From Agarivorans sp. Alg241-V36 (lineage in GTDB: Bacteria; Pseudomonadota; Gammaproteobacteria; Enterobacterales; Celerinatantimonadaceae), in the NCBI RefSeq assembly GCF_900537085.1, contig NZ_UNRE01000009.1, forward strand, positions 129,001 to 193,000: a DNA stretch of 64,000 nt. The letters are read 5' to 3'. The notes beneath the pieces are model-generated. The model was given only the letters and a program-made list of their open reading frames with translations. It did not search any database and had not been told where the DNA came from. The position numbers and the translations under genes are program-made. Shown here piece after piece: positions 14,653 to 60,822 of the stretch (its first letter is position 1; the number at the start of each line of letters is the position of its first letter).

Positions 14653-16284
14653 ATGTCACGCAGTTTAATTTTGGTTTTGTTATGGTTCTGCTTCAGTGTC
14701 TCTGCAACAGAACAAGCAGACCAATACGAAGAAGCCCCAAGCCCAAAGCGTTCTGACATAGAAGGAACCACAACAGAGAGTAGCGAGCAGCCAGCTGAAG
14801 TGAGCTCCAATGTCACCGAGCCCAATGCAGAAGCTGATTCAGTTGAAGCAGAAGAAGCTGCCAGCGCTAGCCAGCCGCAAGCAGAACCGGCGCTGCCAGA
14901 TCAACCCAAGCCCATCATTCCCATCGTCGCCGGTAATACTGACCAAGCCAATGCCAGCCAAGCCACCGAGGAACCGCCGCAGGAAGAAGTATGGGGGCCA
15001 CTGTCTTTACTCAATACCGAACTTAGCCCAAACAGTAGCGCCACTCTAGACTGGTACTCAGGCCATTTGCCCGGTGGATTTGAAGTCGCCACCCCTGTCA
15101 TCGCTATACACGGCAGCGAGCCCGGTCCAAGAGTCTGCATTACCGCGGCCATTCATGGTGACGAGTTAAATGGCGTTGAGATAGCCCGACGAGTGGTTAA
15201 AGGGCTCAGTCCTGAAAACCTTAAAGGTACGGTGATCTCGGTTCCAGTAGTCAACATCGACGGACTTTGGCGTCAAGATCGCTACATGTCTGACCGCCGC
15301 GACCTAAACCGCGCATTCCCTGGTAGCCCAAACAGCTCAACCGCCTCACGGGTTGCCTATAGCTTGTTTAACAGCATTATTCTCCACTGCGATAGTTTGG
15401 TGGATTTACACTCTGGTTCAATGTTTCGTGAGAACCTCACCCAACTTCGCGCAGACCTCACCATTCCAGAGGTCGCCGATGTAGCCAAGCAGTTTGGCGC
15501 TATTTCGGTGTTACAAAGCATTGCGCCTTCTGGCAGCCTGCGCGGGGCTGCAACTGCAGCAGGTATACCTGCCGTAGTTATGGAAGTAGGCGGCCCCTAT
15601 ACCGTGGATGAGAAACAGGTAGAGACCGGAGTTAAAGCCGTACAAAGTTACCTTAGCTCGGTAAACATGCTGCCACGTTCGTTTTTTTGGTCTTCGCCAC
15701 AGCCGGTCTTTTATGCTTCTCAGTGGTTACGCGCACGCGATGGCGGCATCCTGCTGAATAAAGTCGACTTAGGCACCCGGGTAAATAAAGGCCAGCTATT
15801 GGGGACTATTTCTAATCCAATCACTGATGATGAAGAACAAGTTTTGGCGCCATTCAACGCGGTGGTCTTAGGTCGAGCACAAAACCAAGTGGTCAGTGCT
15901 GGCTTTGCCATATACAACTTGGGAGAGCGTCGCAGCATTGAAGATCTTGAACAGCAAGGTGAGCAAATCAAAAAACAAGTGGCTGCGCAAACTGTTGAGC
16001 AATTGGGCTTAAGCGAAACCAAAGAAGAAGAAACCAACAGCGAGCAAGCAACATCTGATGCAGACCTTGCCCAGCCAAACCAAGTTGAACAACAGACTCC
16101 ATCAACCGAAGAAACTAGCGGTAAATCACTTGAACAAGCTCCAGCAACAAGTAATGAGACGCAACCAAACAGCCAAGCTCAAGACGAGACTCAAGCGCAA
16201 AATACCGAAGCTCCTGCCCAACAGGAATTAATCGAGTTGATTCCGGAAGAACGGATGCCACAACCTGAAGATGAGGATGGTTAA
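14653..16284 (+). CDS. secreted succinylglutamate desuccinylase/aspartoacylase-like protein
   Basis: A 543-residue protein with a signal peptide (MSRSLILVLLWFCFSVSATE), an acidic Glu/Ala/Pro/Gln-rich linker to about residue 115, an M14-type zinc hydrolase domain and a second low-complexity acidic tail from about 440. The zinc ligands are visible: HGDELNG (His and Glu) and DLHSG (His). RDLNRAFPG follows the usual Arg-Asn substrate motif. It probably acts in the periplasm on amidated or acylated small molecules; substrate unknown. Its stop codon overlaps the start of tag by one base (TAATG), so the two are translationally coupled. Confidence 0.8.
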   Translation: MSRSLILVLLWFCFSVSATEQADQYEEAPSPKRSDIEGTTTESSEQPAEVSSNVTEPNAEADSVEAEEAASASQPQAEPALPDQPKPIIPIVAGNTDQANASQATEEPPQEEVWGPLSLLNTELSPNSSATLDWYSGHLPGGFEVATPVIAIHGSEPGPRVCITAAIHGDELNGVEIARRVVKGLSPENLKGTVISVPVVNIDGLWRQDRYMSDRRDLNRAFPGSPNSSTASRVAYSLFNSIILHCDSLVDLHSGSMFRENLTQLRADLTIPEVADVAKQFGAISVLQSIAPSGSLRGAATAAGIPAVVMEVGGPYTVDEKQVETGVKAVQSYLSSVNMLPRSFFWSSPQPVFYASQWLRARDGGILLNKVDLGTRVNKGQLLGTISNPITDDEEQVLAPFNAVVLGRAQNQVVSAGFAIYNLGERRSIEDLEQQGEQIKKQVAAQTVEQLGLSETKEEETNSEQATSDADLAQPNQVEQQTPSTEETSGKSLEQAPATSNETQPNSQAQDETQAQNTEAPAQQELIELIPEERMPQPEDEDG

Positions 16285-16868
16285 TGTCCACTTTGCAACG
16301 TTGCCCTTGGTGCGGAAGCGATCCCTTGTATCAAGATTATCACGACAAGGTGTGGGGTCGTCCTGTTTACGACTCCGTCGAGCTATTTGCCAAGCTTTGC
16401 TTAGATGGTCAACAGGCCGGCCTATCGTGGATAACCATATTGCGAAAGCAGCAAAGCTACTATCAAGCTTATGCTCAGTTCCAACCAGAAAAAATTGCCT
16501 TGTTTACAGAGCAAGATTGTCAGCGCTTAATGGAAAACACAGGGATCGTTCGCAATAAACTTAAGATCAACTCCATCGTGAAAAATGCCAAAGCCTATTT
16601 GGCCATTGAGGCTAACGGCCAAGCTTTTAAGGATTACATCTGGCAGTTTGTAGGCGGTAAAACCATTGTAAACAGCTACGCGAGTTTGCAAGAGATCCCA
16701 ACTGAAAGCCCAGAGTCACAAGCCATGTCGAAAGCCTTAAAGAAAGCTGGTTTTAGTTTTGTTGGCCCCACTATTTGTTATGCATTTATGCAAGCGGTAG
16801 GTATGGTGAACGATCACATCACTGGCTGTCATGTGTATCAAGAGACGGTAGCGCTAGCAAGAGTGTAA
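16284..16868 (+). CDS. tag: DNA-3-methyladenine glycosylase I
   Basis: Tag removes 3-methyladenine from alkylated DNA. The 194-residue product carries the zinc-binding N-terminus LQRCPWCGSDPLYQDYHD, with conserved W and the catalytic-pocket segment LDGQQAGLSWITILRKQQSY, and the C-terminal GFSFVGPTICYAFMQAVGMV with the distal zinc ligands His and Cys (NDHITGCHVY). It is fused in an operon to the aspartoacylase-like gene through a one-base stop/start overlap. Confidence 0.97.
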   Translation: MSTLQRCPWCGSDPLYQDYHDKVWGRPVYDSVELFAKLCLDGQQAGLSWITILRKQQSYYQAYAQFQPEKIALFTEQDCQRLMENTGIVRNKLKINSIVKNAKAYLAIEANGQAFKDYIWQFVGGKTIVNSYASLQEIPTESPESQAMSKALKKAGFSFVGPTICYAFMQAVGMVNDHITGCHVYQETVALARV

Positions 16869-17054
16869 TAACCAGAACAGCAGACAGCGTTAAACGCGTA
16901 ACTCTTCACTGAGTTGCGATTATCGGTGTAGTGTAGTTGGAGTGTGTACTTGAGATATTTGCTTCCTCGGTGATATTGAGGAGAGCCGGTTCGCCTGATC
17001 GGCGATTACATCATTGTTACTGTGAATCTTTACTTATTTAACTGCTTTCTGAGA

Positions 17055-17141
17055 TTAACGGCTTAGTTCAGCAATGCGTTGTTCTTCAGTTTTTTTGTTT
17101 TGTAGGTAACTTAGTGCAACCCAACCCATAAAATCCATCAT
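17055..17141 (-). CDS. micro-ORF 3 of tandem paralogous small-protein array
   Basis: The 28-residue product begins MMDFMGWVALSYLQ and ends KKTEEQ, RIAELSR. The pattern is the same as its two neighbours: hydrophobic N-terminal half with Gly at position 6 and Ala-Leu at 9-10, charged C-terminal half with TEEQ and Ser-Arg at the end. A gagaga-type ribosome site precedes the ATG. Promoted in series with the two others on the minus strand. I recognise no family; the hydrophobic half may touch membrane or another protein. Confidence 0.6.
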   Translation of the reverse strand: MMDFMGWVALSYLQNKKTEEQRIAELSR

Positions 17142-17169
17142 AATAATTCTCTCTCTATTAGTGTTTAGT

Positions 17170-17256
17170 TTAACGGCTACGTTCTTGAAGTTTTTGTTCT
17201 TCAGTTTTGTTGTAACCAAAGTAGTTAAGGGCTACTAATCCAAATAAATCGTACAT
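17170..17256 (-). CDS. micro-ORF 2 of tandem paralogous small-protein array
   Basis: A 28-residue product starting MYDLFGLVALNYFGYN and ending KTEEQ, KLQERSR. It aligns without gaps with micro-ORF 3 (same length; shared D at 3, G at 6, VAL at 8-10, Y at 12, K at 17, TEEQ at 18-21 and SR at the end). An aggaac ribosome site precedes the ATG. The middle unit of the array, about 28 bases from ORF 1 and 28 from ORF 3. Confidence 0.65.
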   Translation of the reverse strand: MYDLFGLVALNYFGYNKTEEQKLQERSR

Positions 17257-17284
17257 AATCTTGTTCCTATTGTTAGTTTTTAAA

Positions 17285-17365
17285 CTAGCGGCTACGTTCA
17301 GCTACAGTTTGTTCGTTGTTTACGTTTTTAGCGCGAAGTGCGTAATATAAACCGAATAATTCCAT
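17285..17365 (-). CDS. micro-ORF 1 of tandem paralogous small-protein array
   Basis: The first ORF in the direction of transcription: 26 residues, MELFGLYYALRAKN then VNNEQ, TVAERSR. It shares the L-F-G-L, A-L, E-Q and E-R-S-R elements of micro-ORF 2. The ribosome site aggtgg stands about seven bases before the ATG, the best of the three. Repetition of the start, stop and spacing across three diverged copies argues for real translated genes under selection. Confidence 0.65.
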   Translation of the reverse strand: MELFGLYYALRAKNVNNEQTVAERSR

Positions 17366-17885
17366 AATTTTTCCACCTATTTGTTTAAGTTAATCTTGAA
17401 AGAAAATAACCGCTGCCAAAGGCTTTTTGTTACTAACTTTCTCTTACGGTTTTAATTTTATGCGACACAACGCACACTTAGTATTATGAAATTTGATTTT
17501 AATATTACTAAATTTAACTTTTGGTAATTTAATTACCAAAATGGCACTTTGAAAACATTTTCATTACAGTTTTCTTTTTGGCCGACAAAAAATAATTGCT
17601 GTTACAGCCCACAAAAAAGCATTTAAGACCTTACCTCGTTCACTTATAGCTGCAATTATTTGCACTATGTAGGGTCAGTTGATCTTTCGAGCTGATTTTT
17701 GCAGCCGTTTGTGGCTTATTTATACAAGGCTGAAGTTTTGATCTGTAGCTAGCCTGCATGAGAAAGCGATAACGCAGTGAAATGAGCCACCAACGCCGCC
17801 CAAAGGGTTCGTCTAAAATCGTTTTAGCCGCGATAGCTCAACAAACCCTAGAAAAAAGATCTTCTTCTATAAATAAGGAGCAACA
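17366..17885. other. 520-bp intergenic stretch upstream of micro-ORF array and quinone reductase gene
   Basis: This AT-rich divergent stretch should hold the promoters of the micro-ORF array (minus) and the quinone reductase gene (plus). I see one strong 23-base palindrome (17519-17541) but no long ORF and no structured RNA I recognise. A 58-codon open frame from about 17783 runs out of frame into the reductase gene and looks spurious. Near 17874 a taaggag ribosome site serves the reductase. Confidence 0.5.
17519..17541. promoter_or_regulatory. 23-base perfect palindrome, candidate operator
   Basis: TTTTGGTAATT and AATTACCAAAA flank a single central T, perfectly symmetric over 23 bases. It lies about 155 bases upstream of the micro-ORF array on the minus strand and 345 bases upstream of the quinone reductase. 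The form suits a dimeric repressor; I cannot name the regulator. Confidence 0.55.
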
Positions 17886-18839
17886 ATGCAAGCCATCCAA
17901 GCCCAACATCATGGCGATACACTTAGCCTTGAGCAGACTGACGACTTAAAAGCGAATCAAGATCAAATCCTGATAAAGGTTGAGGCGGCTGGCGTAAATC
18001 CGGTTGATACCTATATAGTGGCGGGAACCAATAACTACACAGCCACCTTTCCCCATACTCCAGGCAAAGATGCTGCCGGCACTATTGTGCAATTGGGCGC
18101 AAAGGTAAGTGGTTTTAAACTTGGCCAGCGCGTCTATTGTGCAGGCTCCTTAAGTGGCGCCAGTGCCGAGTTATGTTTAGCCAGCCCACAGCAAGTTCAT
18201 CCCCTTCCCGACTGTTTAAGCTATGAACAAGGCGCTTGCTTAGGTACGCCCTATGCCACTGCTTGGCGCGCCTTGTTTATTCGTGCTCATTGCCAATCGG
18301 CAGAAACTGTATTAATACATGGCGCAAGTGGCGGCGTAGGTTTAGCCGCTATTCAACTGGCTAAGGCCGCAGGCTGCAGAGTATTCGCCACCGCAGGCAG
18401 CGAGGCTGGCTTGGCCTTATTGAAGCAACAAGGTGCCGATGTGGTTGCCAATCACCACCAAGCCGAGCATTACCAAACGCTGCAACAGGCCGGCAAGGTA
18501 GACGTGATTCTTGAAATGCTAGCCAATCAGAACTTGGGGGATGACTTACCCTTACTGAATAAAGGTGGGCGAGTAGTGGTAATAGGCAGTCGTGGCAGTG
18601 TTGAAATTAACCCTCGCGACTTAATGGCTCGAGATGCCTGCGTAATGGGCATGGCTTTAGCTAATGCTGATAGCCAACAACTAACTCAAATACATGCTGC
18701 TATTTACGCTGGCGCAACAGCAGGCTTTATTCGCCCAGTCATCAGCCAGAGCTTTAACTTAGCCGACACCACTTTAGCCCATGAGGCGGTAATGCAAGCC
18801 GGTGCCACCGGCAATATCGTGGTTAAAGTAACCGACTAA
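17886..18839 (+). CDS. quinone oxidoreductase-like MDR-family NADPH reductase
   Basis: A 317-residue member of the medium-chain dehydrogenase/reductase family, quinone-reductase branch (no catalytic or structural zinc Cys cluster). The N-terminal GroES-like part includes VEAAGVNPVDTYI and TPGKDAAGTIVQLG; the cofactor domain has the loop VLIHGASGGVGLAAIQLAKA, with a following AT-AGS pattern that suits NADPH. The start has an aaggag ribosome site. Likely reduces quinones or unsaturated carbonyls; physiological substrate unknown. Confidence 0.85.
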   Translation: MQAIQAQHHGDTLSLEQTDDLKANQDQILIKVEAAGVNPVDTYIVAGTNNYTATFPHTPGKDAAGTIVQLGAKVSGFKLGQRVYCAGSLSGASAELCLASPQQVHPLPDCLSYEQGACLGTPYATAWRALFIRAHCQSAETVLIHGASGGVGLAAIQLAKAAGCRVFATAGSEAGLALLKQQGADVVANHHQAEHYQTLQQAGKVDVILEMLANQNLGDDLPLLNKGGRVVVIGSRGSVEINPRDLMARDACVMGMALANADSQQLTQIHAAIYAGATAGFIRPVISQSFNLADTTLAHEAVMQAGATGNIVVKVTD

Positions 18840-60379: not shown

Positions 60380-60736
60380 TTATTTCTTAATAGGTTTGCG
60401 AGGACCTTTACGGGTGCGCGCATTAGTTTTAGTGCGCTGACCGCGAAGGGGCAAACTGCGACGATGACGAAGTCCACGGTAACAACCGAGGTCCATCAGG
60501 CGCTTAATGTTCATTGATACTTCACGGCGTAGATCACCTTCAACGGTGAATTTAGCTACTTCGTCACGAAGTTTATCGATTTGTGTTTCGTCAAGTTCTC
60601 TGATCTTAACATCTTCAGCGATACCAGCTGCCGCACAGATTTTCTGTGAACGGGTTAAGCCAATGCCGAAGATTGCAGTTAAAGCAATAACTGCGTGCTT
60701 CTGATCAGGAATGTTAATGCCGGCTATACGGGCCAT
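60380..60736 (-). CDS. rpsM: 30S ribosomal protein S13
   Basis: A 118-residue S13: [20 protein letters not shown], with [20 protein letters not shown], then [20 protein letters not shown]. The start at 60736 has the AGGAG of the S4-regulated leader seven bases before it. First gene of the alpha operon. Confidence 0.98.
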
Positions 60737-60822
60737 TGGCACACTCCTATTTTTCGTGTTAAACGAAGGCCATCTGTGAAAAGCCCGTAAGGATACTCAA
60801 CAGATGACCACATTGCAAATAA
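60737..60822 (-). promoter_or_regulatory. alpha-operon leader with S4-binding pseudoknot
   Basis: The untranslated stretch before rpsM contains GAGTATCCTTACGGGCTTTT, CACAGATGG and aaataggag, matching the conserved parts of the E. coli alpha-operon mRNA leader (GAGUAUCC ... ACGGGCUUUUCA ... AGGAG). In E. coli S4 stabilises a pseudoknot here and traps the initiating ribosome. Confidence 0.8.

Follow-up and report, generated by a model that had tools for sequence, protein, structure and literature searches.

A tandem array of three micro-ORFs on the minus strand of the window, the stretch of 64,000 nucleotides of Agarivorans sp. Alg241-V36 analyzed here, almost certainly consists of genuine protein-coding genes under selection, judging from how the sequences vary among related genomes. 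The explanation that we favor, with somewhat less than even confidence, is a dedicated inducible operon whose abundant amphiphilic micropeptides would act at the membrane surface and whose single promoter would be switched by an activator. Relative to the initial annotation of this DNA, what is newly seen here is an upstream region conserved in three genera, codon usage like that of ribosomal-protein genes, and sister-genus arrays of two to four copies. The array sits in a gap of 1017 bp (16868 to 17886), previously described as an otherwise empty stretch of about 1 kb, as follows:

16284-16868, plus strand: tag, one flank of the gap (name assigned from sequence)
17055-17141, minus strand: micro-ORF 3, 28 aa, MMDFMGWVALSYLQNKKTEEQRIAELSR; in 7/7 genus genomes and the best-conserved copy, with a mean DNA identity of 0.89
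17170-17256, minus strand: micro-ORF 2, 28 aa, MYDLFGLVALNYFGYNKTEEQKLQERSR; in 7/7 genus genomes
17285-17365, minus strand: micro-ORF 1, 26 aa, MELFGLYYALRAKNVNNEQTVAERSR; the first gene of the array, in 7/7 genus genomes
17886-18839, plus strand: quinone-oxidoreductase-like gene, the other flank of the gap

Re-examination of the three ORFs reproduced the coordinates and translations of the initial annotation exactly. The separation of about 28 bases given there was measured as 28 nt for both spacers, and the ribosome site noted for each ORF was seen as a purine-rich stretch 5' of all three (AGGTGGAAA, AGGAACAAG and AGAGAGAGAA). The residues common to ORF2 and ORF3 (D3, G6, VAL at 8-10, TEEQ at 18-21 and SR at the end) are also present as described. 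The accompanying statement that the protein pattern was kept while the DNA diverged holds for these shared residues, but the proteins have diverged too, being 54% identical with a pS of 0.60 and a pN of 0.30. ARAGORN predicted no tRNA anywhere in the window, and at gathering score Rfam gave no match near the array. The window's sole match at this threshold, at 60704-60812 on the minus strand, was the alpha operon ribosome-binding-site RNA (RF00140, 81 bits), which represents ordinary ribosomal protein autoregulation.

All three ORFs were found at the same place, in unchanged order, in each of the seven Agarivorans genomes of the genus set, which runs from the window source (G000) to G006 and in which the array of G005 is that of locus L054 (Agarivorans sp. 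Toyoura001). Profile A1 scored all 21 genus copies at E <= 4e-10, 18 of these copies being members of the profile. Because all three ORFs are kept in 7/7 genomes and ORF3 as a query retrieved ORF2 at E = 0.008 in a search of the 4.7-Mb genome, the ORFs are genuine rather than chance. Across the genus the spacers measured 27-34 nt, apart from a single 67-nt spacer in G004.

Summed over genome pairs, dN/dS was ~0.25 for ORF1, ~0.41 for ORF2 (six genomes, G003 being excluded for its different length) and ~0.34 for ORF3, values that are descriptive because pairwise sums are not independent. Differences in ORF3 numbered 73, 12 and 119 at codon positions 1, 2 and 3, third positions being the richest. 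Over eight ORF-by-genome-pair comparisons (a ninth, whose sequences differed in length, was omitted), 48.7 of 84 differences were nonsynonymous versus 62.4 in simulations, none of 500 of which gave a value as low. The coding frame of the tested copies, a set without ORF2 of G003, contained no internal stops, and each of the five other frames contained 4-27. One antisense frame was also rich in synonymous differences (for ORF2, 56 vs 39 in the coding frame); this frame carries 7-12 stops, and the signal was taken as the mirror image that opposed third positions commonly produce.

The extent of conservation at the DNA level agreed with these observations. Mean pairwise DNA identity among the seven genomes was 0.76 in the promoter region, 0.74 in the leader and 0.84, 0.77 and 0.89 in ORF1, ORF2 and ORF3, with 0.48 and 0.69 in the spacers, 0.37-0.47 beyond the upstream side of the promoter, and, past the last stop, 0.42 over the first 50 nt and 0.40-0.49 over 250 nt; conservation thus stops at the stop codon of ORF3. 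A conserved RNA structure at the array was considered and rejected, since the consensus fold had two-sided changes in only 3 of 51 pairs and an unhelpful covariation term of +0.91 kcal/mol. Altogether, the claim of selection on translation made in the initial annotation was borne out by the dN/dS range of 0.25-0.41, the stop-free coding frame and the conservation ending at the last stop. The two comparisons on which that claim had been made to depend also came out in its favor, as homologous ORFs were found in all seven genus genomes and in sister genera, and the substitutions respected the reading frame.

Beside tag in both genomes of the Aliagarivorans type (g2; genome G078 is locus L055, Aliagarivorans taiwanensis), two such ORFs of 28 and 29 aa were found, and the single genome of a third genus (g3, G096) has four of 30-32 aa, also beside tag. 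The two genomes of a further genus (g4) have no array beside tag. The first g2 ORF was matched by profile A1, which was built without g2, at E ~6e-4, and profile A5, which contains Aliagarivorans peptides, matched both ORFs in both g2 genomes. The third-genus peptides were matched by none of the protein profiles and align weakly with ORF2, at 20-28% identity; the homology of this array to that of Agarivorans would rest on position, layout and the common upstream region. A copy number of three in Agarivorans, two in Aliagarivorans and four in the third genus implies gain and loss of copies alongside divergence of the peptides.

Additional traces of this turnover were seen within the arrays. The 3' end of ORF1 is partly duplicated in tandem (39 nt) within the 67-nt first spacer of G004 (L004), a trace of copy gain. 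In G001, ORF2 is closer to ORF3 (pN 0.17 vs 0.30-0.33 in five others) and looks partly converted by it, as far as the sequences indicate, and copies 2 and 4 of the third genus are one residue apart. Of the "repeated gene birth" by tandem duplication proposed initially, the tandem duplication is supported, and the history is better stated as one old duplication predating the genus split, followed by copy gain, loss and probable conversion. The interval between array and tag varies as well: in G002 (L170 1014-2632) and G006 (L171 861-2480), two genes on the strand of the array, one acyltransferase-like and one of 146 aa, stand between them. A hairpin CGCCTGATCGGCG between tag and array (window 16992-17004, L055 4659-4673, L030 2108-2120) is kept in three genera, with the C-G at its base changed to T-A in the third genus; a run of T comes after it in the tag direction in Aliagarivorans, which makes it the probable terminator of tag.

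About 115 bp upstream of the array can be aligned across the three genera. The following features were recognized there:

17428-17541, minus strand: conserved upstream region, the predicted promoter region, for which an Agarivorans-only model matches the sister-genus arrays
17455-17460, minus strand: probable -10 element TAAAAT, predicted from the alignment and followed by a conserved CCGTAAGA or close variants
17474-17494, minus strand: 21-bp direct repeat, promoter-proximal copy (AAATTTCATAATA...), which overlaps the place expected for the -35 element
17495-17515, minus strand: the adjacent promoter-distal copy of that repeat (AAATTTAGTAATA...), from alignment and genome search
17520-17540, no strand assigned: operator-like palindrome TTTGGTAAT-N3-ATTACCAAA, whose three centre bases vary among genomes
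17550-17563, no strand assigned: second, imperfect operator-like palindrome (TGAAARTGTTTTCA on the minus strand), in 6/7 genus genomes and degenerate in G006

The conservation of this region was measured with two models, R1 built from all ten upstream copies and R2 from the seven Agarivorans copies alone. R1 scored its ten copies at 72-100 bits, strong matches that arise by construction because the model was built from them. R2 provided a fair test, and in whole-genome searches its top match lay exactly upstream of the array in 3/3 sister-genus genomes, with 61.7 bits (E 2.8e-16) in the third genus and 31.7 and 26.3 bits (E 6.8e-7 and 2.9e-5) in the two of Aliagarivorans type. Neither model found a strong match in the two g4 genomes, where the best of R2 was 15.5 bits in one and no match in the second. 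Although R1 had matches at E <= 0.1 in 97 of the order's 295 genomes, many of these matches were weak and AT-rich and none outside the three genera exceeded 24 bits; no micro-ORF arrays were seen at 15 outside R1 loci (L149-L163) or at two weak matches in the window's own genome. Among 30 sources (the window, L054-L080, L031 and L032), the upstream region was strong in the window, L054 and L055 only. A 19-bit match at L076 8317-8407 (Alteromonas aestuariivivens) includes TTTTGTAATTAAATTACCAAA and is followed by no array before the end of the locus. Plasmid matches to the region (blastn, 46 records) covered at best 32% of the query at 77% and E 4e-3, and were judged to be AT-rich chance.

Several details of this region point to regulation. 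The -10 element reads TATAAT in the Aliagarivorans type and TATTAT in the third genus. Both repeat copies start with AAATTT in five of the seven Agarivorans genomes (the others being G005 and G006) and with AAATAT in g2 and g3; such matching starts are the pattern that two sites for one factor would leave, and the promoter-proximal copy would cover the expected -35, as at an activated promoter. The first palindrome has at most one mismatch in 7/7 Agarivorans genomes and in the third genus, and is degenerate in the Aliagarivorans type. The window's copy is the only exact one in its genome; one other match with two mismatches (G000:C8:63876-63896, L177; control 0) may be a lead to a regulator. 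Judged from the sequence, the array is very likely driven by one shared, regulated promoter.

Other results on this region count against the reading as an operon. The repeat pair occurs once in the genome without mismatches, and its one further match, at three mismatches, is no more than the control gave (1), so that no regulon emerged by this route. A sigma-70 consensus scan of the gap returned three sites against 2.5 expected, none of them at the proposed promoter and one between ORF2 and ORF3 (17167-17140, minus strand), and no terminator-like site was found 3' of ORF3.

Codon usage provided a separate line of evidence. With the eight ribosomal/rpoA genes of the window as reference, the three ORFs together had a CAI of 0.80, compared with 0.69-0.82 for the reference genes themselves and a median of 0.545 (maximum 0.76) for 58 other ORFs. 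This value was reached by 0 of 10000 synonymous resamplings and by 3 of 1255 background segments of equal length. In single genomes the ORFs had values of 0.64-0.85, and the Aliagarivorans array gave 0.72 (reached by 21/5000 resamplings) and the third-genus array 0.70 (126/5000), both with the window's reference. A CAI like that of ribosomal-protein genes points, indirectly, to strong translation, and high expression of the array is likely on this ground.

The initial annotation knew of no named family for these peptides, and none emerged here, as Pfam, NCBIfam, PHROGs, PADLOC and the PDB gave no convincing match. Pfam returned nothing for the three window peptides or the five sister-genus peptides submitted, and PADLOC nothing; PHROGs gave two weak matches with a single member each, and the PDB four weak matches (best E 0.22). 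In NCBIfam only weak matches to Alvin_2107 (4 of 18 A1 members) and one to Blr (1 of 18) were seen. For the former, a sulfur-globule protein family (NF049856), the best E was 0.0035; window ORF3 scored 17.1 bits against a curated cut-off of 60 over about 20 overlapping residues, neither ORF1 and ORF2 of the window nor any of the five sister-genus peptides gave a match, and the similarity was treated as chance. No paper on this array was found by titles and abstract openings among open-access papers.

Searches for relatives reached a similar end. The ORF3 protein had matches in 12 of 295 genomes of the order, namely the seven of the genus and five from g15 and g38, and profile A5 in 13, namely the seven, the two g2 genomes (these nine are partly built in, because such sequences belong to A5) and four others. 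The nine matches outside Agarivorans and g2 fall within frames 241-822 codons long and were put down to chance, as was a match in a plasmid collection (an Aeromonas caviae record, E 0.7) within a 243-codon frame. A third-genus peptide as query matched its own genome and once inside a 1697-codon frame, no convincing array match was obtained in 283 other genomes of the order, and one pattern for the C-terminal half of ORF3 had no match in viral contigs. In a scan for tandem ATG micro-ORFs that covered 79 named loci around tag (L055-L133, some of them truncated at contig ends), such an array was seen only in Aliagarivorans (L055). Repeats at L060 scored higher and were set aside as another thing, and lower-scoring loci look like chance; the L060 repeats (Aeromonas caviae CECT 838, reverse complement 1395-1738) are three head-to-tail, near-identical 35-codon ORFs with a 118-bp period, unrelated in sequence to the array, and may be a repeat inside another gene. 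So far as searched, the array appears limited to one bacterial family.

Across nine peptides from the three genera, a hydrophobic, often aromatic N-terminal half is followed by a polar C-terminal half in all nine. Mean hydrophobicity was 0.58-0.99 over the first 13 residues and -0.39 to 0.08 over the last 13, on the Fauchere-Pliska scale. The hydrophobic stretch, about 12 residues by eye, looks too short to span a membrane, and the charged C-terminal half is probably helical, with a basic last residue. No evident signal peptide was seen. The N-terminal helical moment was 0.16-0.24 in Agarivorans, 0.07-0.08 in the Aliagarivorans type and 0.42-0.50 in the third genus; being low in two genera and higher in the third, it makes the term "amphipathic" fit unevenly, which counts against the operon reading.

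The array recalls several known systems. Because at least one tested defining feature is lacking for each of leaderless bacteriocins, type I toxins, phenol-soluble modulins and leader peptides, we claim membership in none. The staphylococcal psm-alpha layout has four peptides, and phenol-soluble modulins form a helix that is amphipathic over the whole peptide and are exported by a dedicated transporter. The array peptides are bipartite instead, and are likened to modulins by name only. The psm-alpha operon likewise encodes small leaderless peptides, and, according to PMC4227749, AgrA directly activates psm genes and binds direct repeats at agr promoters. Multi-peptide leaderless bacteriocins (aureocin A70, garvicin KS) likewise comprise three to four leaderless peptides of about 30 residues, and PMC6131525 describes aureocin A70 as four peptides of 30-31 residues with a charge of +4/+5 and with known secretion and immunity genes. 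It is quite improbable, by this analogy, that the array encodes secreted leaderless peptides, surfactant-like or antibacterial, acting extracellularly as a Gram-negative analogue of such Firmicutes systems. Several tandem peptides of 26-32 residues with their own ribosome sites behind one conserved upstream region would suit such a role, but the net charge is -1 to +1 in eight of the nine peptides and +3 in one, unlike the strongly cationic A70. Moreover, reading of the array's neighbors revealed no evident transport or immunity gene beside it: these are tag and the quinone-oxidoreductase-like gene in the window, the intervening acyltransferase-like and 146-aa genes in G002 and G006, and in the third genus tag plus an enzyme-like gene of 125 aa, with a large gene resembling an efflux pump one gene farther away. 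Membrane-associated type I toxins (Ldr, Ibs, DinQ), as described in PMC8309996, are likewise very small (< 60 aa), partly hydrophobic and basic at the C-terminus, and tandem paralogues would also accord with micropeptides that depolarize the producer's own membrane under restraint by an antisense RNA. This reading is very unlikely: the hydrophobic stretch before the polar half is short for a transmembrane helix, the codons suit strong translation, the spacers with their ribosome sites, a potential antisense target, are less conserved (0.48 and 0.69) than the ORFs, and no sign of an antisense RNA was seen among Rfam matches near the array.

Short tandem ORFs in a long non-coding gap would also be expected of leader peptides or of an RNA element, where translation or RNA structure matters and the peptides do not, and in G002 and G006 two genes do follow in the same orientation. 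In the other five of the seven genus genomes, however, the next gene is the convergent tag, within ~210 nt, and a regulatory leader would have a same-strand gene downstream; together with conservation that ends with ORF3, the unsupported fold and amino-acid selection on the ORFs, this makes the reading most improbable. The readings as leader peptide, RNA-only element, leaderless bacteriocin and type I toxin all fit worse than a membrane-surface operon. That the ORFs arose by chance in an AT-rich gap is already refuted and can practically be dismissed: random ORFs are common, since 148 of >= 20 aa overlap a 10-kb stretch, but presence in 7/7 genomes, dN/dS, frame-specific absence of stops and codon bias all speak against chance. 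A different function for genuine peptides, unlikely in our estimation, would be that of cytosolic adaptors whose C-terminal helix binds one or more soluble partners (e.g., a protease, RNA polymerase or an enzyme), with the hydrophobic half as a binding face rather than as a membrane anchor. The C-terminal part T/S-E-E-Q/E-(K/R)L.E..R is among the best-shared elements of the ORF2/ORF3-type copies, the hydrophobic stretch is merely some 12 residues long, and the codon bias is equally compatible with an abundant soluble factor; against this, the hydrophobic, often aromatic N-terminal half is kept in 9/9 peptides, and no linkage to a partner gene is evident, one flanking gene being different in the third genus.

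Under the inducible-operon explanation that we prefer, a DNA-binding activator would bind the two adjacent 21-bp repeats overlapping the -35 position and switch on one promoter upstream of ORF1, and the palindrome immediately upstream of the repeats may be the site of a second factor. All three ORFs would then share one transcript; because each has a ribosome site of its own and largely optimal codons, their peptides would be co-produced in large amounts. As amphiphiles, these would settle on the cytoplasmic side of the inner membrane and act jointly there, either by binding a membrane protein or by altering the surface. For action at the membrane surface as such, we see about an even chance.

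Annotation pipelines have difficulty calling genes of fewer than ~30 codons, and the array offers unusually complete sequence evidence for such genes, combining protein selection, near-ribosomal codons, an upstream region common to three genera and copy turnover. A tentative and rather doubtful extension is that it may represent an undescribed Gram-negative marine family of two to four paralogous, amphiphilic and massively translated micropeptides behind a promoter unique in the genome, which would form a multi-component assembly at the membrane surface whose members duplicate, convert and diverge fast while promoter and layout stay fixed. The array also constitutes a small natural system of copy gain, loss and conversion of microproteins under one promoter. 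If the codon bias carries its usual meaning, these peptides may, under some condition, rank among the more abundant of the cell.
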